From Eunapius fragilis (Eukaryota; Porifera; Demospongiae; Spongillida; Spongillidae): a DNA stretch of 64,000 bases. Shown here in pieces: positions 140 to 63,326 of this stretch (position 1 is the stretch's first letter; each line of letters starts with the position of its first letter). The DNA lies in contig OY811992.1 of NCBI GenBank assembly GCA_963681505.1, forward strand, positions 4,256,889 through 4,320,888. Reading direction: 5' to 3'. A program made the translations under genes and the position numbers. The notes under the pieces are model-generated. The model had not been told where the DNA came from, searched no databases, and saw nothing but the letters and a program-made list of their open reading frames with translations.

Positions 140-6843
<6,704 letters not shown>

Positions 6844-9066: not shown

Positions 9067-11775
<2,709 letters not shown>

Positions 11776-23805: not shown

Positions 23806-24176
23806 GTAGTCATGTTACTGGTTAATAAGCTAATCTGAACAATCGTATAACACTATAAGGTGGATAATATCTTCACATGTTTGAGGGAAATGTAACATTT
23901 ACTAGGAGTTTTAAACATGAAAGGCTACAACTGTAAGGTCTGGGAAGGAGATATCGTCGCGAATTAGGAAAATGTATTTGAACAGTATAATGATGCGATT
24001 AATCAATTAGTGTTATCGCTTTACAAACGGTCTCTTCCTTTAAGGGTATAAATGAGGGCATAATGCTAATCTGCGATTAAAAAGATGCTCAAATACAAGT
24101 TGAATTCAAACTATAGTCACTACACAGCTTAGAACAGTTACAGCAGCCATGATGTCTCTTCGTGGTTCTCAGTGCC

Positions 24177-24317: not shown

Positions 24318-24332
24318 TTACAGCTTTGGTGG
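24318..24332 (-). CDS. Microexon gene, terminal exon with stop
   Basis: After TTCACTGCAG, the phase-0 reading gives PPKL and TAA. The preceding intron (165 bp) contains one more donor-like GTAAGT at 24407-24412 without a matching acceptor, perhaps a decayed unit. Confidence 0.5.
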   Translation of the reverse strand, partial: PPKL

Positions 24333-27253
24333 CTGCAGTGAAGTGGAAATTTAACACAACGTGACAGTAGTAAAGGAATAAATAACTTAAAAGAACTTGA
24401 TTGCAAACTTACCTTAATTCGATTCAGTATTGTGTGTCCATGGTCGCATTTCATTGTTAATCAGTTGGGTTAAGTGTTATGAGAAGTGTATACTTACACA
24501 CTATATTATTCAGAGCAATATCCATTGTGATGAGGGATAAAATATGGAGTCATGGGAAACACAAAAGTATTGTTACTTACACACTGCATTACGCGTAGTA
24601 GTATCCATGTTGACAAGGAGTAAGTAGGCATGGTAATGTGCAACGAAAAGTGCAGAATTGGTTATACTTACGCACTGCATGAATTGTCAATAATAGTGTG
24701 ATTGACAAGGAGTAAGCAGGTATGTTAAGGTGCAATGGGAAATGCAGCATCATTGATACTTACTAACTGCATTGTTCATAAGTATAAATGCATGGTAAAG
24801 TTCAATGGGAAATGCAACATGAGTGATATACTTACGGTCTGAATTGTTCATATTAGTAATAGCAAAACGGAATAAATAGACCAATTTGAACTGCATCATC
24901 ATTCAATGATATACTTACAGGCTGCATTGCCCAAAGTAATCATAGTAACAAGAAAAAAAAAGTAAAATGCAATGGGAAATGCAACATCATTCAGTGATAC
25001 TTACGCCCTGCATTGTTCAGAATAGTATCCATGGCAAAAAACAATACACAGGCATGGTAAAGTGTAATAGGCAATGCAGCATCACCATTCATACTTACAC
25101 CCTGCTCACAATAATATCCATGGCAACAAAGAATAATTACGCATGGTAAAGTGGAACAGTATCCATGGTAACAAGATACAATCAGAAATGCAACTTCATT
25201 GATAAGATCATTGATACTTACAAGCTGCATTGTTCATAATTGTTCATAATACCATCCATGGCAACAAGGTACAAGTAAAGTAGAAATGCGGCAATATAAT
25301 TGATACTTACGCCGCCCTGCGGGGTGAATTGTTCATAATAGTACCCATGCCAACAAGTAAAGTAATAAGTGAAGTGCAAAGGAAAGTGCAACATCATTGA
25401 TACTTACAGGCTGCAGTGGTTCACAATGCATCCAGGGCGACAAGCAATAGATTGGGAAATGCACGATACTTACAATCTGCATTGTTCATAATAGCATCCA
25501 TGACAGCATGCAGGCACAGTAAAGTTGCAATGGAAATTGCAACATCACTTATACTTACGCTCTGCATTGTTCATAATAGTAAAGTAGGCATGATAAATGC
25601 AGTGGGAAATGCAACATAAATCGATACTTACAATCTGCATTGTTCATAATAGTGAAAAAGTAATCAGTAGGTATGGGAAATGCTGCGTCACTCGTACTTA
25701 CCTTCTGCAATATGCGTGGTGACAAGGCCCGAAAAATTTAAGACATCTTACAGTGCAGAAATATAACATCCATTGGTACTTACACACTGGATTGTATAAG
25801 TATATATTCATAGTTCCATGATGACAAGGTCAAAATAAAAATTAACCCATGTCAAGATGCAATTGGAAAATGAGAAATCCAACATCATTGATACTTACAG
25901 GCTGTATTGTATCCATGGTGACAGAAGATTAGTATGCGTGTTAATGAAATGCAACAATTGATACTTACGGACTATAGCATATTGACAAGGAATATTATTT
26001 AATGCATGCTTAGGTACAACGACGAAATGTTACTACCTTCTGCATTGTTATTACCGGAAATAGTTTACACGGTGGCAAGGAATTAGTGAGCATGGTAACA
26101 GTGCAGTGGGAAATGCTTTGCCACTGAAACTTACGCACTGCATCGTTCGTATAATTGCATGGGCGGAAAGGAATAAGTAGCCATATTAAGGAATGCAATA
26201 TCATTGATACTTACGGTCTGCATTATTAGTACAGGAAATAGTATGCGAAGAAATTATGTAAGGCATGACAAAGATGCACGCGAACTGCAACGATATACTT
26301 ACTTTACCGCCCTGCGTATAGCAACAAGAATAATAGGTATATAGATGAGGTATAAGAGAGGAAATGCAACATATTAGATACTTACGCCCTGCATTGTTCA
26401 TAACAATATCCATGGTAACAAAGGATAAGTAGGGAATGTAATGGTTCAATGGGAAACGCCGCGTGACTGATACTTACCCACTGCATAAATCACGGCAAGA
26501 AGAAGTATTTAGGGCAGTAAAACAATGGGCATTGTAACAGCATTGATTCTTACAAACTTGATTGTTTATAATAGTGTCCAGCATGGGAACAAGAATTGTA
26601 CATGCATGGTTGGAGATGCAACCTCGTCGATATACTTACCGACTGCAGCGTTATCAAAATATCAATCAGCAGCAACAAGAAATACGTATTTTCATTATAA
26701 AGCGCAAAGAGTGTTGATAAATACACACTGAATTGTTGATATTTGCATCCATGTTGACAAGGAACAAGTGCAATAATAGTAATTGAAAATGCAATATCAT
26801 TGATACTTACTATGTCCGGCTTCTGCATTGTTCATATTTAGTATCAATGCCGGTGCACGGCAGTACGCGAAGATGATTTCAATTGTTCATATCACACATA
26901 AAAACGCTAATTCTGACCTGGGCTTCTCCACTCAAGTAATTATTCATCATTTCTATGAGTATAGAAAATTTTTTACATAATTATACCGGTATATTGATTA
27001 TAAATCAATCACGCCTAACAGCAGCGCACTAATCTTACCGTTCGCAGGAACGTCGACGTCTTCACGGTTAGTCAAAAATTTGCCGCTGTCACTGATATCG
27101 ACCACTTTGTCTGTATATTTCTGCTGCTGTTGCAAGTGAAACAATCGTTGGCTCTCTCAGATGACGCTTGCGATGGCAAACCTCATAGCTCGTAAGGCGG
27201 GCGTCAGCGAAAAGCGCCAGTAACGTCGCAAGAACAGCCAGTTCCTTCAGCAT
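24318..27253 (-). CDS. Secreted Cys-rich peptide gene built from single-codon microexons
   Basis: Predicted 103-residue secreted precursor, 32 coding exons on the minus strand: signal exon 27182-27253, pro-region exons 27039-27126 and 26918-26952, 28 microexons between 24498 and 26822, and terminal exon 24318-24332 ending in TAA. Total coding length is 312 nt, divisible by three. Phases: exon 1 ends in phase 0, exon 2 in phase 1, exon 3 (35 nt) restores phase 0, and all microexons have lengths 3, 6, 9 or 12. Read in this phase there is no stop. All six cysteines lie in the microexon part, framework C-x8-C-x3-C-x13-CCC, none in signal or pro-region. The layout resembles secreted disulfide-rich peptide precursors, which include antimicrobial, signalling and toxin-like peptides; sequence does not tell which. 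No transcript supports the model. Confidence 0.72.
24498..26822 (-). CDS. Array of 28 symmetric microexons (25 are single codons)
   Basis: In transcript order: 26811-26822, 26725-26727, 26640-26642, 26554-26556, 26478-26480, 26386-26388, 26303-26311, 26215-26217, 26135-26137, 26037-26039, 25969-25971, 25899-25901, 25784-25786, 25702-25704, 25632-25634, 25559-25561, 25474-25476, 25408-25410, 25311-25316, 25222-25224, 25099-25101, 25005-25007, 24919-24921, 24836-24838, 24764-24766, 24672-24674, 24581-24583, 24498-24500. Acceptors: 25 CAG, 2 TAG, 1 AAG. Donors: 25 GTAAGT, plus GTATTT, GTAAGA, GTAGTA. Microexons 2, 9, 13, 26, 27 and 28 encode Cys. Introns are 63-120 bp and share a consensus (GTAAGTATCAATGATGTTGC near the start, ATTATGAACAATGCAG at the end). 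The codons vary freely while AG and GT are kept. Confidence 0.75.
26918..26952 (-). CDS. Microexon gene, exon 3: end of pro-region
   Basis: 35 nt between CTCATAG and CCCAG|GTCAGA, reading MMNNYLSGEAQ. It converts phase 1 to phase 0. Skipping it would put a TAA into the read at microexon 7, so its length is informative. Confidence 0.55.
27039..27126 (-). CDS. Microexon gene, exon 2: pro-region
   Basis: Open in the frame set by exon 1: KYTDKVVDISDSGKFLTNRE then DVDVPAN, hydrophilic and acidic, no cysteine, typical of a pro-region. Donor ACG|GTAAGA at phase 1. Confidence 0.65.
27182..27253 (-). CDS. Microexon gene, exon 1: signal peptide
   Basis: ATG at 27253; 24 codons beginning MLKELAVLATLLALFADA, with a positively charged start, hydrophobic core and small residues before a likely cleavage site. 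Donor GAG|GTTTGC is weaker than the others. Intron 1 is 55 bp and ends in a triple CAG (AACAGCAGCAG), so the acceptor may shift by 3 or 6 nt without changing frame. Confidence 0.65.
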
Positions 27254-32714: not shown

Positions 32715-32869
32715 TGCAGAAACTAATTTCCAATGTGGACGATGATGATGAATGCATGGACCTCCTCTATGCCGGCATGGTAGCTCGATTAACTGGAAAC
32801 CGTCCAGCTGTGTTGTGGGCCATGCACATCATTGAAAAGATGGGATCTGCCTTTACATCAAATTTGCAG
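32715..32869 (+). other. Exon-like open stretch before receptor copy 2, unrecognised
   Basis: After CTGCTTGCAG the sequence reads ISNVDDDDECMDLLYAGMVA then RLTGNRPAVLWAMHIIEKMG and ends near TTTGCAG where the minisatellite begins. It looks coding but matches no family I know. It replaces receptor exons 1-4 here. Confidence 0.35.
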
Positions 32870-33116
32870 ATGTACCAGGGATGTTGCAGGTGTACCAGGG
32901 ATGTGTGCAGGTGTACCAGGGATGTGTACAGGTGTACCAGGGATGTGTGCAGGTGTACCAGGGATGTGTGCAGGTGTACCAAGGATGTGTGCAGGTGTAC
33001 CAGGAATGTGTGTAGGTGTACCAGGGATGTGTGGAGGTGTACCAGGGATGTGGTCAGGTGTACCAGGGATGTGTGCAGGTGTACCAGGGATGTGTGCAGG
33101 TGTACCAGGGATGTGT
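32870..33116. repeat. 21-bp minisatellite, receptor copy 2, about 12 units
   Basis: Same unit and same distance to the membrane-exon acceptor as in the other copies. Confidence 0.85.
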
Positions 33117-33159: not shown

Positions 33160-34040
33160 ATGGGCCTGCCTCATTCCACAGTTCACCATCCATATCCAGC
33201 TCCACCCCTGTCTACACCCCCTACCTCGCCACCACCCCCCCTACCAACCAGAGCAGTCCCCCTAGCCAATAAAGCTGCTGCCATGCCACTGGTAGTCATA
33301 GTAGCAACAACAGTGGGTGTTGTGGGCAGAGTCATCGTCATTGTCATAATGGTCATTGTGGTCTGCACAGTGGTAGGAGTGGTTCATGCAAGGAGGTCTT
33401 GCAACAATAGCAGGTCTGGAAACAATAACAGGTATAGCAGAAACGGTATAGGATTTGTGTTGCATCCAAGTCTAACTACATTTCACACATTAGAGGATGA
33501 GGGTCAATGTTTCTAGACTAAGAATCAAGAAAATAAAAGTGAAGGTGTCACGTTTTCTGACCCCTATTGAGGCGTATGGTAAAAGAAGATGAATTTGCTC
33601 TCAAAAACACAATCCAATTTCTCTTTTCGTCTTTAACCACCACTGCAATATAAGATGATACTGATCATTAGTAGCCGTTCTGTAATATGAACAACTTGCA
33701 TGAGATTGTATACATGGTGCAAACCTCAGCCATTGGTAACATTCCAGAGAAGGCTGCATACAAATATCATAGTGGCATGCTAATTCACATACAAGCACTT
33801 TGTCTTCAGCACTTTCTAATACCAACCAGATCAGTGACATCTTTGATCATATGCAAACAGTTGCCAAACACAAATTAGCAATGATCCTTTTACAGAACTG
33901 TCAAGCGTATGAAATGTGGATTTATATGGATAACATATACGGAGTCTCTAGATTTAGGGCAAATGCAGTCTGGGACAAGGGAAAAGTCCCCAGGAGTGTG
34001 ATCTCCTCCATGTCCATACTTTGTCATGCCAATTATTGGT

Positions 34041-34131
<91 letters not shown>

Positions 34132-34385
34132 GTGCCACAGTGGCAGTGCAGATGTATGAGACTATCCAGGAGGTTAACCACACGCTATATCAGAAGAATG
34201 AAGAACTACCTCCTAATCTTATCTCCAAGGACTACGAGGAGGCTCTTGACATGACACTGAATGATGCATATGGACCACATCAGAGCAATGAAGGACAAGC
34301 TTCCCCTCAAATCTCCAAGGGCTGTGACATGACACTGAATGATGCATATGATTATGCAAGCACACAAGTCACCTCAAAGGACTAG
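33160..34385 (+). pseudogene. Ig receptor copy 2: membrane and tail exons only
   Basis: Exon 5 at 33160-33431 and exon 6 at 34133-34385 are clear. The stalk reading frame entered in phase 1 ends at a TAA at 33270, while the membrane segment (PLVVIVATTVGVVG...) is in another frame. The cause appears to be one extra C in a C-run near 33235-33241 compared with copy 3. Exons 1-4 are absent. A small in-frame duplication (GNNNR-like) extends exon 5. The tail is well preserved. A sequencing error in the C-run cannot be excluded, but the missing Ig exons make it non-functional regardless. Confidence 0.75.
34045..34130. repeat. (CA)43 run at the acceptor of the tail exon, copy 2
   Basis: Ends directly in AG at the exon border, as in copies 1, 3 and 4. 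Confidence 0.95.
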
Positions 34386-47755: not shown

Positions 47756-50378
47756 TGCCACCGCAGCTGTGACTTACGCGGGTCTGGTATGAGACAGACC
47801 ATAATTAGAAGTTGTTCGATCTAAATATGCAGCACGCAGTACATAGCCCCGCTACAGGAAAAAGTTAGTATTGTGTTCCCGAACACGATTATATCAAACG
47901 TTATCGTCGATACAAGCTCATGAAATATAAAATCGATGACATAACTGAGCTCAATTAGTGAAGGTCAGTCACGTGCTTTATTACTTACAAGAGCGCTCGC
48001 AAGATGATGGTCCTCCACTTGGTGGTGGTGGCGATACAATTATTACTCACCATGTGCAGTTCAAGTAGTAAGCAGACGAATACTATATGTTTGTACATAC
48101 GTTCGTGAGCTACCGTGTGCGCGTACAGGACTTCAGCATTGGGAGCCTGTTAAGGCGTTTGAGTTATGAACCGTGCTCACGCGAGTGCGTGTTTATGTGA
48201 GTATACATGTATAGACATTCATTAGGGTACATTGTTTGAATGCACGTTTTATGAACATACATTGCTTACAAGTATATGTGCGTACGGCGGGTAGGTTTAT
48301 TCCGGTTCTCTAAAAGCAGCCCAACCACCTCTGAATGCTGTGAGCCTGAGGGGACCCCAGTACTTTGATGAAATCAGTGATAATTCGAGCAGTGTGATAG
48401 TAGCGGGATCAGTCATCCAACTCTTCTGTTCAGCCAGTGGACAGTTCACTGCTCCCCACATACAGTGGACGAGGAATAATTTCACCATTCCAGAGACTGC
48501 ACAGTTGCCTCATCTGATGGTAAAGAGTAGGACAGAGAACAACACCGTCATTTCCTCAGTTCTCACTATCTACGGTTTCTCATCAAGTGATAATGGAAGC
48601 TATCAGTGTTGTGCTTCAGACATCAATGGCAGTACTTTGAGTAAACCATTACTGCTAACAGGTTAGTGCCACAGACGTATTACTTCAATCACCCATCCTT
48701 TACTCTGCAGCTATCAATGGCTCCAACAAGTTGAAGATGATACGAGAACTTAGTAACTCCACATCAGACAGAACATCTGTTCCTCTTGGAAGTTCAAATA
48801 TTTCAACCAATGGAATCTTTCTGAGATGTTCAGCTGAACAGCCTTCTTCATCCTCTCTTGCTGCACCCAGTGTGATATGGTTGAGGGATGAGACATAGCT
48901 ATCTGGTGATGGGGTTAGGGTTGTGATAACTACCAATACCTATACCACTATCATGGGATCAAACAGGACTGTAAGCTTTGTCCGTATCTTCAACTTCAGT
49001 CAGTCTGATGCTGGAGTGTACCAGTGTGTGTTCTATGACACACCATCCCAGGGAGGAGAGGTTATCACTACTAGACCATACAAAGTGGACACAGGTATGG
49101 ATAGCCACTTTTCATTTGCTGGAATGAATGTGTTTTATCTTTATTTGTTAGGTCCAGTCTTCATTACTGCTGCTTCTCCTTTATCAGTCACCCTCTGTCC
49201 CCCTGAGCCTCTGGTCCTCCAAATGGAGGCAGGAGGAGAGTATGCTGATATTCAATGGAGCAGGACACCAATTGCTCTGAATATCAGCAGTGATGAACTG
49301 GTGGACTTCCAGCAGACATTTGTGAGGACTGTGACATCAGAGCAGGACTGGGGACTATACTTGGCGTCCATTATGTTGCCCAATAATTCATCTTCCAATA
49401 TCACAATCAGCTGCAGCATATCTTGTAACACCACTGTGCCCAGTAAGTCAATAGACAAGACTGAATAATAGTACTGGAATGTTTATTGATTGAAAAACAA
49501 TAAAAGGGTGGACACTGTTATTGTTTACAACCTTGTAAAGCAGTTGTCTGGGAATCATAACTCCTCCCCTTTTCATCTGTGGCAGGGGCCACACCCCAAC
49601 ACATGGTCACCTTGTCACGTTAGAACCATCTTTGGGTCATTCCATGTCTGTAGGACTCAAATTGGATGCTATCCTTTAGATTTTGGTGCAAATACTCATA
49701 TTCGCCTGACCTAATATGAAGGTTAGTTTGGTCCCAAAAAAAAGTTTAATAACGTGAATGGTTTACCTCATGAATAATGAATTTTTTCTCTCATTTTGGA
49801 AAGTCGTAACGCCCTCTCACAAAATATGTATGGCAGCACAATAGTGTACAACCCATCCAACAATAATGTGTTTATGGGAAGGTGCAAAGGGTTAAATGTA
49901 TATAACACGGCACAGTTTTCAATATTTAGGTCATTTGCAGAATGATACACTAATATATATTTTACTAAATGGAAGCCATTCATTGTCTTCATGTATTGAC
50001 AAAATCAGAAGTCAGAGTATGAGCTAGTTCTGAGAACCACAGAAGGTTAAACTGCAAGACGCCATTTTTTTTTCTTCCAGGTTGTTTTTATAGCACTGAT
50101 TAAAAGTAAGTGTTGTTTGCATATGCCTACATAACAACCCAACCTATTTAAGTAAACGATACGGAACATGACTGAGCACATGTTGTACTCATCTGTCACG
50201 TTTTTTTTCCTAATAACGCTGACTTGTGCACTCAGTTGTTTTGTTCAAGCGGTGGTTTGTAAGGCGATGTCAAAAAACCTGTTGTGTCCCATTCAAAACG
50301 TCGTATATACTACATCTCCTGGGAAAGGTTACTATGCCCCGCCCTCCTGCACTGCACCTACTTGGGAAAGGCTACTAC

Positions 50379-52491: not shown

Positions 52492-52685
52492 TTTTGCAGG
52501 TGATGCTAAATATTTCCTGTAACTGAATGCTGGTGGATCTGTTTGGGGCTGGGTGGGGATGTCTCCACCTGCCCACCTGATTGGTGTGGTTTCATGGCTT
52601 TGTGGTCTGTGGTGTGGTCAAATCAATGCACTACATCCTGTTACCTCTGGAACCCCAAATCCTACTCCTCCTTTTACTCCAATGT

Positions 52686-53556
52686 GCAGGTGTACCAGGG
52701 ATGTATGTAGGTGTACCAGGGATGTGTGCAGGTGTACCAGGGATGTGTGGAGGTGTACCAGGGGTGTGTGTAGGTGTACCAGGGATGTGTGGAGGTGTAC
52801 CAGGGGTGTGTGCAGGTGTACCAGGGATGTGCGCAGGTGTACCAGGGGTGTGTGCAGGTGTACCAGGGATGTGTGCAGGTGTACCAGGGATGTGTATAGA
52901 TGTACCAGAGATGTATGGAGGTGTACCAGGGATGTGTGTAGGTGGACCAGGGATGTGTGCAGGTGTGTGCAGGTGTACCAGGGATGTGTGCAGGTGTACC
53001 AGGGATGTGTGTAGGTGTACGGGGGATGTGTGGAGGTGTACCAGTGATGTGTGCAGGTGTACCAGGGATGTGTGTAGGTGTACCAGGGATGTGTGGAGGT
53101 GTACCAGGGGTGTGTGCAGGTGTACCAGGGATGTGCGCAGGTGTACCAGGGGTGTGTGCAGGTGTACCAGGGATGTGTGCAGGCGTACCAGGGATGTGTG
53201 TAGGTGTACCAGAGATGTGTGGAGGTGTACCAGGGATGTGTGTAGGTGAACCAGGGATGTGTGCAGGTGTACCAGGGGTGTGTGCAGGTGTACCAGGGAT
53301 GTGTGCAGGTGTACCAGGGATGTGTGTAGGTGTACGGGGGATGTGTGGAGGTGTACCAGTGATGTGTGCAGGTGTACCAGGGATGTGTGGAGGTGTACCA
53401 GGGATGTGTGGAGGTGTACCAGGGATGTGTGCAGGTGTACCAGGGATGTGCAGGAGTACCAGGGATGTGTGGAGGTGTACCAGGGATGTGTGGAGGTGTA
53501 CCAGGGATGTGTGAAGGTGTACCAGGGATGTGTTCAGGTGGACCAGGGATGTGTGA
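52686..53556. repeat. 21-bp minisatellite, copy 3, about 41 units with 315-bp duplication
   Basis: Longest of the four arrays. The rare variant GTGTACGGGGGATGTGTGGA occurs at about 53015 and again about 315 bp (15 units) later, showing that a block of units was duplicated. Confidence 0.85.
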
Positions 53557-54528
53557 AGGTAGTATTATACTTTTACTTTTATCACTCCAATCACCAGATG
53601 GGCCTGCCTCATTCCAAAGTTCACCATCCATATCCAGCTCCACCCCTGTCTCCACCCTCTACTTCGCCACCACCCCCCAACCAACCAGAGCAGTCCCCCT
53701 GGTTAATGGAGCAGCTGTCATACCACTGGTAGCAACAACAGTGGGTGTTGTGGGCGGAGTCATCATCATTGTTATACTGGTTATTGTGGTCTGCACAGCA
53801 GTAGGAGTGGCTCATGCAAGGAGGTCTTGCAACAATAGCAGGTATAGCAGAAACGGTATAGGATTTGTGTTGCATCCAGGTCTAACTACATTCCACACAT
53901 TAGAGGATGAGGGTCGGTGTTTCTAGATTAGGAAACCAGGAAAAAAAAAGTGTCATGTTTGCTGACCCCTATTGAGGCGTATGGTAAAAGAAGATAAATT
54001 TGCTCTCAAAACACAATCCAATTTCTCTTTTCGTCTTTAACCACCACTGCAATATAAGATGAAACTAGTCATTAGTAGCCGTTCTGTAATAAGAATCAAC
54101 TTGCATGAGACTGTATACATGGTGCAAACCTCAGCCATTGGTAACATTCCAGAGAAGGGCTGCATACAATTATCTTAGTGGCATGCAAATTCACATGCAA
54201 GCACTTTGTCATCAGCACTTTCTAATACAACCAGATCACTGACATCTTTGATCACATGCAAACAGTTGCCACACACAAAATTTCGATGATCCTTATACTG
54301 AACTGTCAAATGTATGAAGTGTGGATTTACATGGATAGCATATAGATAGTTATGTGCCACTGTATAACACTACACCAGTACTTGAGGATCAAAAATTTTA
54401 GCACAGAGAACTAAAATGTAGTGTTTGGATTTGGGGCAAATGCAGTCTGGGACAACTGAAATAGTCTCCAAAAGTGACAGAAATGACTGATCTCCTCCAT
54501 GTCCATATTTGGTCTGCCAATTATTGGT

Positions 54529-54536
54529 ACACACAT

Positions 54537-54590
<54 letters not shown>

Positions 54591-54600
54591 CACACACAAG
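54529..54600. repeat. (CA)n run at the acceptor of the tail exon, copy 3
   Basis: About 35 CA units with one AA interruption, ending in AG at the exon border. Confidence 0.95.
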
Positions 54601-54959
54601 TGCCACAGAGGCAGTGCAGATGTACGAGACTATCCAGGAGGTTAACCACACGCTATATCAGAAGAATGAAGAGCTACCTCCTAATCATATCTCCAAGGAC
54701 TACGAGGAGGCTCTTGACATGACACTGAATGATGCATATGGACCACCTCAGGGCAATGAAGGACAAGCTTCCCCTCACATGCCCAAGGGCTGTGACATGA
54801 CACTGAATGATGCATATGACTATGCAAGGACACAAGCCACCTCAAAAGACTAGCAGATGTGATGCATAAACAAATTCAAACAAAGCCGGATTACAGACTT
54901 TTTATAAAATTTCAAGAAGACTTTTAATTTTTTTTTCTCAATATTTTCTTGTGTTTGGA

Positions 54960-59616: not shown

Positions 59617-62600
59617 GTAAGCAGACGAATACCGTATGTTTGTACATACGTTCGTGAGCTACCGTGTGCGCGTACAGGACTCCAGTGTTGGGATCCTGTT
59701 AGGCGTTTGATTTCTTGAACCGTGCTCACACGAGTGCGTGTATACATGTATAGCCATTAGGGTACATTGTATGAATGCATGTTTTATGAACTTACATTGC
59801 TACAAGTATGTGTAAATGTGTATGCGGCGGCTAGGTTTATACCGGTTCTATAAAAGCAGCTCTGAATGCTGTGCGCCTGAGGGGACCCCAGTACTTTGAT
59901 GAAATCAGCGATAACTCGAGCAGTGTTATAGTAGCTGGATCAGTCATCCAGCTCTTCTGTTCAGCCAGTGGACAGTTCACTGCTCCCCACATACAGTGGA
60001 CCAGGAATAATATCACCATTCCAGAGACTGCACAGTTGCCTCATCTGATGGTAAAGAGTAGGACAGAGAACTCTTCAGTCCTCACTATCTATGGTTTCTC
60101 ATCAAGTGATAATGGAAGCTATCAGTGTTGTGCTTCGGACATCAATAGCAGTACTTTGAGTAAACCATTACTGCTAACAGGTTAGTGTCACATCAGATCC
60201 TTCACTTCAATCACCCATCCTTTACTCTGCAGCTATCGATGGCTCCAACGTATTGTATATTATACGAGAACTTGGTAACACCAAATCAGACAGAAAAACT
60301 GTTCCTCTTGGAAGTACAAATATTTCAACCAATGGAACCTTTCTAAGATGTTCAGCTACGCAGCCTTCTTCATTCTCTCTTGCTGCACCCAGTGTGATAT
60401 GGTTGAATGATGAGACACAGCTATCTGGTGATGGGGTTAGGGTTGTTGTGACAACTACCAATACCACTTTCATGGGATCAAACAGGACTGTAAGCTTTGT
60501 TCGCATCTTCAACTTCAGTCAGTCTGATGCTGGAGTGTACCAGTGTGTGTTCTATGACACTCCATCCCAGGGAGGAGAGGTCATTACCACTAGACCATAC
60601 AAAGTGGACACAGGTATGGATAGCCACTTTTCATGTGCTGGAATGAATGTGTTTTATCTTTATTTGTTAGGTCCAGTCTTCATTACTGCTGCTTCTCCTT
60701 TATCAGTCACCCTCTGTCCCCCTGAGCCTCTGGTCCTCCAAATGGAGGCAGGAGGAGAGTATGTTGGTATTCAATGGACCAGGACACCAATTGCTCTGAA
60801 TATCAGCAGTGATGAATTGGTGGACTTCCAGCAGACATTTGTGAGGACTGTGACATCAGAACAGGACTGGGGACTATACTTGGTGTCCGTTATCTTGCCC
60901 AATAATTCATCTTCCAACTTCACAATCGCAATCAGCATATCTTGTAATACCACTGTGCCCAGTAAGTAAATAGACAAGACTGAATAATAGTACTGGAATG
61001 TTTATTGATAGAAATAATATAAAACAAAAAATGGATGGACACTATTATTGTTTAGAACCCTGTAAAGCAGTTGCCTGGGAATCATAACCCCTCCCTTTTT
61101 TCATCTGTGGCAGAGGCCACACCCCAACACAGGATCACCTTGTCAGGTTGAAACCATCTTGGGTCATTCTATATCCAATGGGACTCAAATTGGATGCTAT
61201 ACTTTAGATTTAGTGCAAATACTCATATTTGTCTGACCTAATATGAAGATTAGTTTGGTCCAAATAAAGTTTAATAACGTGAATGGTTTACAAAATACAC
61301 CATCATGAATAATTTAGATTTTTTCTTACTGAGTTATAATTTTGGCTTTGGAATATCGTAACTCCCTTCTCACAATATTTGTATGGCTATATTTGGCACC
61401 AATGAATGGCTCCATTCAGTAAAAAAGATATCTTTTTTACTGAATGGGAGCCATTCATTGTCTTCATGCATTGACAAAATCAGAAGTCAAGAGTATGAGC
61501 TAACCACAGCAAGATGCCTTTTTTGTGTATAGCACTAATTAAAAGTAAGTGTTTACATATGTCTTTAGGTGATATTACATAATAACCTGGACCATAAGAT
61601 TGTTATGATCTGATTCTCATTGGTTTCCAGTAGTTGTATTAATAATCGTGAGGTGGATGTGTGGAGGTGTACAAGGGATGTGTGCAGGAGTACCAGGGAT
61701 GTATGCAGGTGTACCAGGGATGTGTGGAGGTGTACCAGGGATGTGTGCAGGTGTACCAGGGATGTGTGCAGGTGTACCAGGGATGTGTGCAGGTGTACCA
61801 GGGATGTGTGCAGGTGTACCAGGGATGTGTGTAGGCGTACCAGGGATGTGTTGAGGTGTACCAGGGATGTGTGCAGGTGTACCAGGGATGTTTAAATGTA
61901 GTATTATACTTTTACTGTTATCACTCTAATCACCAGATGGGCCTGCCTCATTCCACAGTTCCCCATCCACATCCTCCATCTACCTACCTCCACAGTCCCG
62001 CCTGGCCAATGGGGCTGCTGTCATGCCACTGGTAGTCATAGTAGCAACAATGGTGGGTGTTGTAGGTGGAGTCATCATCATGGTTATACTGGTCATTGTG
62101 GTCTGCACAGCGGTAGGCGTGGCTCATGCAAGGAGGTCTTGCAACAATAGCAGGTATGTTTTTACTGCCAGAAACTGTATAGGATTTGTGTTGCATCCAA
62201 GTCTAACTACATTCCACACACTAGCAGATAGGGTCGGTGTTTCTAGACTAGGAAAAAAGTGAACAGTGTCACTTTGTCAACCCCTATTGCCACGTAAGGT
62301 TTGAAAGCATTAATTTGCTCTCATAACCCAGTACAATTTCTCATTTAGTCTTTAACCTGCACTGCAATATAAAATGATACTGATCATTAGTATGGGGTAC
62401 ACACCTAAGAGCTGGGCTGTTGTTAGAATCAACTTGCATGAGATTGTATACATAGTGCAAACCTCAGCAATTGATAACATTCCAGAGAAGGGCTGCATAC
62501 AAATATCTTAGTGGCAAGCAAATTCACATGCAAGCACTTTGTCTTCAGCACTTTCTAATACCAACCAGATCAGTGACATCTTTGATCATATGCAAACAGT

Positions 62601-63006
62601 TGCCACATACAAAAGATTTTATTAATCGATGATCCTTTTACAGAACTGTCAAATGTATGAAGTGTGGATTTACATGGATAACATATATGTAGATAGTTAT
62701 ATGCCGCTACATAACACTACACCAGTACTTGAGGATCAAAAATTTTAGCCCAGAGAACTAAAATGTAGTCTGGATTTGGGGGGGACATTTTTAACAATGC
62801 AGTCTGGGACAACTGAAATAGTTCCCAGAAGTGACAGAAATGACTGATCTCCTCCATGCATGACCATACTTTGTCATGTCATTTATTGGCAACACACACA
62901 CACACACACACACATGCATGCACACACAAACACACACAAACACACACACATGCATGCACACACAAACACACACACAAACACACACATGCATGCACACACA
63001 ATCACA

Positions 63007-63069
<63 letters not shown>

Positions 63070-63326
63070 GTGCCACAGAGGCAGTGCAGGTGTATGAGAC
63101 TATCCAGGAGGTTAACCACACGCTATATCAGAAGAATGAAGAACTACCTCCCAATCATATCTCCAAGGACTATGAGGAGGCTCTCATTGACATGACACTA
63201 AATGATGCATATGGACCACATCAGGGCAATGAAGCACAAGCTTCCCCTCAAATGTCCAAGGGCTGTGACATGACACTGAATGATGCATATGACTATGCAA
63301 GCACACAAGTCACCTCAAAGGACTAG
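59553..63326 (+). CDS. Ig-superfamily receptor, copy 4, complete and open (510 aa)
   Basis: Reference copy. Exons 59553-59616, 59857-60180, 60233-60613, 60671-60961, 61937-62153, 63071-63326; coding total 1533 nt with no internal stop. Order: signal peptide, Ig1, Ig2, degenerate Ig3, short Ser/Pro/Thr stalk, one membrane helix, cytoplasmic tail. Introns 2 and 3 are 52 and 57 bp. Many N-x-S/T sites. The tail has Tyr motifs (YETI, DYEEAL, NDAY twice) that could bind SH2 proteins after phosphorylation, but no canonical ITAM or ITIM. By layout it is a cell-surface recognition or adhesion receptor; ligand and pathway are unknown. Neighbouring paralogues imply a tandemly expanding family. Confidence 0.85.
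59857..60180 (+). CDS. Copy 4 exon 2: Ig domain 1
   Basis: Cys in VIQLFCSASG, Trp in IQWTRNN, and DNGSYQCC at the F strand. Acceptor AAGCAG allows two start points 3 nt apart. The loop before SSVL differs in length among copies by 6-9 nt. Confidence 0.8.
60233..60613 (+). CDS. Copy 4 exon 3: Ig domain 2
   Basis: Cys in TFLRCSA, Trp in VIWLNDE, and SDAGVYQCVFYD. It varies among copies around the B and C strands. Confidence 0.8.
60671..60961 (+). CDS. Copy 4 exon 4: degenerate Ig-like domain 3
   Basis: Cys in SVTLCPPEP, Trp in GIQWTRT, and EQDWGLYLVS with Val in place of the second Cys. Ends CNTTVP in phase 1 before GTAAGT. Confidence 0.75.
61401..61461. repeat. Near-perfect 61-bp palindrome in intron 4 of copy 4
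   Basis: AATGAATGGCTCCATTCAGT and onward to GATATC, then the complement with one extra G. Other copies have only one arm (ATGGAAGCCATTCATTGTCT). Confidence 0.8.
61660..61890. repeat. 21-bp minisatellite, copy 4, about 11 units
   Basis: Same unit and position relative to the membrane-exon acceptor as in copies 1-3. Confidence 0.85.
61937..62153 (+). CDS. Copy 4 exon 5: stalk and transmembrane helix
   Basis: Ser/Pro-rich stalk, then PLVVIVATMVGVVGGVII and following hydrophobic residues to VVCTAVGV, with positive HARRSCNN just inside the membrane. Ends in phase 2. Confidence 0.8.
62891..63070. repeat. Compound CA/TGCA microsatellite at the tail-exon acceptor, copy 4
   Basis: CA runs interrupted by TGCATGCA and AAACA, ending in a pure run and AG at the exon border. 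Confidence 0.93.
63071..63326 (+). CDS. Copy 4 exon 6: cytoplasmic tail
   Basis: Begins SATEAVQVYETIQEVNHTLY. An internal repeat DMTLNDAY occurs twice. One extra Ile codon (EEALIDMTL) compared with the other copies. Stop TAG at 63324-63326. Confidence 0.8.

Follow-up and report, generated by a model that had tools for sequence, protein, structure and literature searches.

Candidate secreted-peptide genes of the sponge Eunapius fragilis with arrays of putative single-codon exons

The window analysed here, a stretch of 64,000 nucleotides from Eunapius fragilis (G000:C22:4256889-4320888; genome assembly of 219 Mb in 24 contigs), holds one member of what is very probably a family of secreted-peptide genes, whose mature peptides would derive almost wholly from exons of a single codon. 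The arrays in these genes combine kept splice signals with whole sense codons and a symmetric frame, which is phase 0 wherever it was assessable. A preliminary description of the window gene had proposed that one codon is encoded per exon. This interpretation gained support from a shared signal-peptide exon, the matching phase in 17/17 loci, exon lengths that are multiples of three, the absence of stop codons and a corresponding exon junction in gene models of Ephydatia muelleri.

Between positions 24318 and 27253 of the window, 28 units of the form AG-codon(s)-GT were found on the minus strand, 25 with 3 nt between AG and GT and one each with 6, 9 and 12 nt. This tally is as first described; it is made up of 27 listed units and the TGT at 26725-26727 with its weak donor GTATTT (Table 1). 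The proposed signal-peptide exon and two pro-region exons upstream were recovered as well, their 72 + 82 + 35 nt adding up to 189 = 63 x 3, so that the frame stands at phase 0 where the array begins. After joining of the exons the frame stays open for 101 residues to the TAA at 24318-24320, or for 100 residues if TGT 26725-26727 is omitted. With this triplet counted, the product contains six cysteines, all encoded in the array. Thus, the open frame to TAA and the placement of the six cysteines stood as described earlier, while the length had to be corrected from 103 to 101 residues.

Table 1. Features of the array gene in the window (positions refer to the window).
Feature	Position	Strand	Remarks
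Exon 1, putative signal peptide MLKELAVLATLLALFADARLTSYE	27182..27253	(-)	72 nt, phase 0; relatives in 15/21 loci
Exon 2, acidic pro-region	27039..27120	(-)	82 nt, ends in phase 1; L050 and others have a homologous exon
Exon 3, pro-region	26918..26952	(-)	35 nt, phase 0 restored, donor GTCAGA; homologues with a phase-0 donor in 16 other loci
First array exon, KPDI	26811..26822	(-)	12 nt
Single-codon exon TGT, Cys 1	26725..26727	(-)	weak donor GTATTT; paralogue L050 has GTATGT
26 further array exons	24498..26642	(-)	24x 3 nt, 1x 9 nt, 1x 6 nt; residues S F W G GGK T C K S P C K I S I P GG L G G P T L C C C
9-nt array exon GGCGGTAAA	26303-26311	(-)	
6-nt array exon GGCGGC	25311-25316	(-)	
AG|GTAAGTTT site	24412..24413	(-)	zero-length exon (ratchet-point-like) or dead unit; frame unaffected
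Last coding exon CCA CCA AAG CTG TAA	24318..24332	(-)	PPKL, stop
Probable 3' untranslated exon	24090..24175	(-)	end point approximate; comparison by eye

Using the pattern [CT]AG-N3-GTAAGT, 22 matches were obtained on the minus strand of 24318-27253 and none on the plus strand; the remaining ~61 kb of the window contained 0 on the plus and 1 on the minus strand. In 500 dinucleotide shuffles of 24318-27253 the strict unit pattern appeared 0.008 times on average and once at most. When spacers of 0-12 nt were scanned in the window array, lengths of 3, 6, 9 and 12 nt alone were found (22, 1, 1 and 1 cases).

The window gene is one of many. A 70-base unit consensus gave at least 498 matches in the genome, and the exact context AATGCAG-NNN-GTAAGTATCAATG occurred at 329 places, compared with 0 for the same pattern read backwards. 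A six-frame genome search with a joined precursor yielded 72 matches at E <= 10, 53 of which start at residue 1 of exon 1; as their E-values reach 9.2, the weakest of these 53 are uncertain, and the count may also miss members. Thirty loci were read, namely the window, 20 loci from unit-consensus matches (L021-L040) and nine from exon matches, picked via exon 1 (L041-L045, L047-L050). At least six in-register units were present in 27/30 loci, the others being L026 with 4, L041 with 4 and L028 with 1. L041 holds many more units, which belong to another intron family. A relative of the hydrophobic MLKEL exon 1 lay inside 15 of the first 21 stretches, the window included, the signal peptide being judged from hydrophobicity and the nine later loci being preselected by their exon 1 match; for L039 and L040 the exon 1 match fell outside the fetched stretch. 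Exon 3 ends in phase 0 in all 17 assessable loci (16 and the window), L044 having matched too little. A terminal exon AAA TGA (Lys-stop) is common to seven loci.

The predicted peptides vary widely, from the six-cysteine product of the window to a Pro/Arg-rich one in L029 and a Gly/Arg/Lys-rich one in L030. The array of L031 has six codons, and in L022 up to 49 single-codon exons follow one another. In L022, blocks of several units are duplicated (D-P-S-K-V-I-N once, P-S-K-V-I-N-L earlier), which gives peptide repeats. In L028 a single strict unit separates exon 3 from the terminal Lys-stop exon, either a near-total contraction of an array or a stump. Sequence like that of the probable 3' untranslated exon also ends the genes in L036, L042 and L045, distant members of the family (GTAGTGACTATAGTTTGA..., compared by eye). 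Another intron consensus (e.g. GTAAGTACCAATGATATTACATTC, GTAAGTATCATTGATGTTGTAGTC) with the AG-codon-GT design retained was seen in L041, L043 and L044; since the consensus differs while the design is kept, introns may be homogenised within lineages.

The mature part of the window product had no match to solved structures at E <= 10, two precursors hit no Pfam family at E <= 1, and Rfam gave nothing for the window at the gathering threshold. With one exact pattern for each collection, no match was found in viral contigs and a single one, a Sulfurospirillum MAG without an array, in bacterial and archaeal genomes.

The same flanks were searched genome-wide with other spacers. No case of N0-2 (AATGCAG-N0-2-GTAAGTATCAATG) was detected, and N4-8 gave three, two of them the 6-nt GCTGCT and one the 4-nt TTTT, which belongs to a short array in decay (C13:3.9196 Mb) and is 1 of 332 exact-context places. 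Stop codons were absent from the exact context (TAA/TGA 0, TAG 0, versus 47 for NRA). Units were also located by flank models in which AG, spacer and GT were hidden. It has to be considered that intact units served to train these models and that donor bases after GT form part of them. This approach identified 493 units, 451 of them with AG and GT in register and with exon lengths of 3 nt (443), 6 nt (3), 9 nt (4) and 12 nt (1), all divisible by three. The 6-, 9- and 12-nt exons are the stronger evidence for this periodicity, because repeated copies of the same 3-nt unit do not count as independent observations. Not a single stop was found in 465 codons, where ~10.7 were expected from position frequencies (P ~2e-5, a value that presumes independent codons, which these are not fully). 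In 37 of the 42 off-register units an AG displaced by a few bases again yields an exon of 3n length, while the other two length classes would be obtained in 3 and 0. The remaining 5/493 units have no usable AG/GT pair nearby, hence units do die. With a free choice of AG (0-21 nt upstream, scored by flank), 496/496 exons passing the thresholds were multiples of three. The introns follow no such strict rule: the 316 shorter than 130 nt measure 61-99 nt with a mode of 88 and fall into mod-3 classes of 189, 70 and 57. A tandem unit consists of one short intron and one codon, often ~91 nt in all. No clear branch point was recognised by eye in the unit consensus. The third codon base is T in 325/465 codons, and proline is written CCT in 92/96 cases (30 loci), which may go back to a preference in splicing or to a small number of ancestral units.

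Comparison of 383 strict units from 21 loci showed plainly homologous introns, and codon positions 1 and 2 were the least conserved of 100 columns (0.07 bit each). Between the window gene and its paralogue L050, 18/69 codon sites had changed against 52/1026 flank sites (P = 5e-8), with 6/6 cysteines kept. In six paralogue pairs without shared members, 56/384 codon bases and 277/5739 flank bases were changed (~3x). Per codon base, the changes amounted to 21/128, 23/128 and 12/128; 33 unit changes were nonsynonymous and 5 synonymous, and cysteine units were kept in 26/26 cases. The six donor bases after GT had 0-4 changes per 125-128 and AG/GT 0/512, low values that arise partly by selection of units, since AG, GT and part of the donor bases are required by the unit pattern. 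Extending the comparison to 13 pairs, which share members and of which L025/L027 and L039/L040 are young arrays with possibly mispaired units, codons were faster than flanks in 11, seven of them at P < 0.05. The two exceptions were L042/L048 and L033/L034. For four paralogues on contig C22, 28 collinear units were compared, each intact in at least three of the four and chosen for having AG and GT. Here, codon positions 1 and 2 changed at 14/56 and intron columns at 281/2506 (P = 0.0044), and AG/GT changes were restricted to 1/112, a dead unit.

Neutral drift of triplets and splice signals among relatives, which the preliminary description had named as the outcome that would speak against it, was not what these comparisons gave. 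AG and GT were kept in 451/493 units and rescued in 37 of the other 42, and the triplets outpaced the introns yet stayed sense, with cysteines kept throughout (26/26). We take the triplets to be, almost certainly, exons that are translated and subject to diversifying selection. Alternatively, the arrays could be a tandem satellite with splice-like motifs by chance, or could be excised whole, in both cases with meaningless triplets. Such a reading draws on units that are plainly tandem repeats with homologous introns, and is nevertheless highly improbable in view of 0 stops in 465 codons, spacer lengths of 3n alone, fixed cysteines and an excess of change confined to the codons. It would also leave aside the signal-peptide exon and phase match before the arrays and the same junction in E. 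muelleri gene models. A coincidence of satellite and splice motifs was rejected on the genome pattern counts, the spacer and stop controls, the flank-found units and the paralogue pairs.

Translated exons could also have been diversified by codon-aimed mutation or by exchange of cassettes rather than by selection on ordinary mutations. Several single triplets differ by multi-base changes between near-identical flanks (CCT/TAC, AGC/CAT, ACC/CTC). Moreover, the nearest relative of a unit within its array has the same codon in 30% of cases versus 11% after permutation (14% versus 8% between families), and for this reason a codon seems to be duplicated jointly with its intron. The constraint on cysteines and stop codons, however, amounts to strong selection, and we regard a codon-aimed origin of the diversity as quite unlikely. 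In arrays of this design, unequal exchange could insert or delete amino acids one by one with the frame intact. It is conceivable, and we put it forward as a tentative suggestion, that throughout the family one repeat stands for one residue and is inherited, duplicated, lost and exchanged as a codon cassette, and that ratchet splicing with a choice of exons may yield a library of secreted peptides per gene.

Analyzing protein databases with eight joined precursors, a total of 44 proteins was obtained at E <= 1, and 45 over all protein searches. The freshwater sponge E. muelleri was the sole named organism among the matches, EukProt proteins being assigned to it by the Em prefix. For 6/45 proteins the in-frame translation of the donor side, VSINDVAFPIAPY, matched better than all 300 shuffles. 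Five of these are the E. muelleri models P0016, P0017, P0018, P0025 and P0035, and the sixth, P0038, is unnamed. In P0035, P0025, P0016 and P0017, exactly one residue (H, F, I and K, respectively) separates the last residue of exon 3 from VSI; these four models thus read exon 3, one codon and then GTAAGTATC in frame. The C-terminus of P0006 corresponds to a whole translated unit (E = 5e-6 for L025 when the 30 loci were searched locally), and P0001 has exons 1, 2 and 3 joined in the way modelled for the window gene. In P0016 the downstream, probably untranslated exon seems to be translated. The E. muelleri models of 2020 came from AUGUSTUS trained on RNA-Seq, according to the methods information available from the genome article (PMC7385117), and are for this reason predictions and not cDNAs. 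They stop or enter intron sequence inside the array. Among the 45 database proteins, which are gene models or genomic reading frames, no joined mature peptide was recognised. A few precursor matches in the six-frame genome search cross an exon boundary, for example that at C21:1192545 with query residues 41-73, which falls on exon 3 of L025; none exceeds 45 query residues and none is recognisable as a spliced retrocopy.

We infer that the array codons are spliced in order. The pre-mRNA would be processed intron by intron, by intron definition, because the two splice sites next to a 3-nt exon could not be occupied together. Each step would add one codon and uncover the next GTAAGTAT donor, which amounts to a recursive (ratchet-point) splicing that would leave a codon and not nothing. 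This donor, found in 364/451 units, is fully complementary to bases 1-8 of U1 snRNA; because all eight of its intronic bases match the U1 5' end, it should work without exon bases. Short introns and exon-independent donors fit intron definition with stepwise removal.

Constitutive use of every exon is, however, an assumption. The exons could be real and each transcript could use a subset, so that skipping in a symmetric array creates many peptides per gene. Exons of 3n length throughout mean that any skip keeps the frame, and dead units inside intact arrays are bridged without its loss; the diversity of schistosome micro-exon genes is credited to alternative splicing (PMC10526429). A fixed chain is nevertheless the better fit to cysteines kept in 26/26 cases than a random subset, and the uniformly strong donors favour constitutive use. 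We consider subset use a minority possibility, clearly more plausible than meaningless triplets or codon-aimed mutation.

Tiny exons as such are known. For the 1-nt exon of Arabidopsis APC11 the authors suggest intron definition combined with stepwise removal (PMC4674806), and the RPS24 microexon reportedly has 3 bp (PMC12686416). Both illustrate that splicing can retain exons as small as 1-3 nt in the mRNA; they are lone tiny exons in ordinary genes and not gene bodies. The zero-nucleotide ratchet points of Drosophila resemble the arrays in that acceptor and donor adjoin, so that removal has to be stepwise; they sit within long introns and contribute no sequence to the mRNA (PMC8605326). The sponge arrays differ by short introns and, in our model, by one codon left per step. 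Spacers of 0-2 nt in the exact context number 0 genome-wide, and one zero-length site, AG|GTAAGTTT, lies at window position 24412.

The micro-exon genes (MEGs) of schistosomes are the nearest known kind, and a cautious reader may regard the sponge genes as an extreme MEG variant. Those of Schistosoma mansoni share a signal peptide, many tiny exons of mostly 3n length, variable products and poor automatic annotation; they differ in having 10-20 exons of mostly 15 bp and introns of 0.1-5 kb (PMC10526429). The abstract of that article states exon lengths of 3-81 bp; its main text has 6-81 bp and puts most exons at 15 bp. The initial statement that schistosome micro-exons are longer therefore applies to the majority at 15 bp and not to the full range of the abstract (PMC10526429). 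In a comparison by gene structure, 443/451 sponge exons measure 3 nt, and introns are mostly 61-99 nt and homologous tandem copies of each other. What sets the array genes apart, in our view, is that coding rests with the repeat unit rather than with the exon, at one repeat per residue. A literature search, mainly of open-access full texts with few subscription papers and no bioRxiv, found no gene built mainly of single-codon exons, in agreement with the original description, which knew of no such gene. A PNAS paper from 2024 on precursors of sponge macrocyclic peptides could bear on this point.

On the model, the peptide would be cut from its pro-region and folded by disulfide bonds, with other family members rich in proline, arginine or glycine; a role in defence or chemical interaction is likely. 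Conotoxin-like superfamilies likewise combine a conserved signal and pro-region with fixed cysteines and fast-changing residues between them. To our knowledge, the mature peptides of conotoxins are not divided into single-codon exons. Sponge disulfide and proline-rich peptides, namely halichondamide A and the barrettides and proline-rich macrocyclic peptides cited along with it (PMC11382151), are also short, Cys-rich or Pro-rich, and have proposed ribosomal precursors. Such peptides come from other species, and the likeness is one of peptide description and not of gene structure (PMC11382151).

If cDNA agrees, these genes would represent the finest division of coding sequence known to us, with dozens of consecutive one-codon exons in dozens of genes. 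They would challenge exon definition as a need for accurate splicing and provide a natural system for the ordered splicing of 3-nt exons. Agreement of cDNA would equally account for annotation missing the array peptides and would establish a gene design in which selection can swap, gain or lose individual residues with the frame preserved. The family would also bring to light a pool of hitherto hidden sponge peptides that are Cys-rich, Pro/Arg-rich or Gly-rich.

Other features of the window were recorded in passing. Repeated copies resembling an immunoglobulin-domain receptor gene lie at 28-1027, 48295-49468 and 60178-60969. Within them, the curated Pfam cut-off is passed by 48295-48663 for Ig_3 and further entries, matches of 48899-49465 and 60178-60966 stay beneath it, and 28-1027 was likened to these copies by eye alone. 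Mutually similar open reading frames with repeated Tyr motifs follow (6406-6843, 34002-34385, 54491-54853 and 62844-63326); the one tested, 6406-6840, had no match in Pfam. A 21-bp minisatellite, TGTGCAGGTGTACCAGGGATG, of 3n length occurs at 5068-5555, 32865-33116, 52683-53560 and 61655-61891, and at the first three of these places a long reading frame crosses it and continues into hydrophobic sequence (by eye). A piece of a cation efflux family gene (Pfam PF01545) was located at 9622-10077 on the minus strand.
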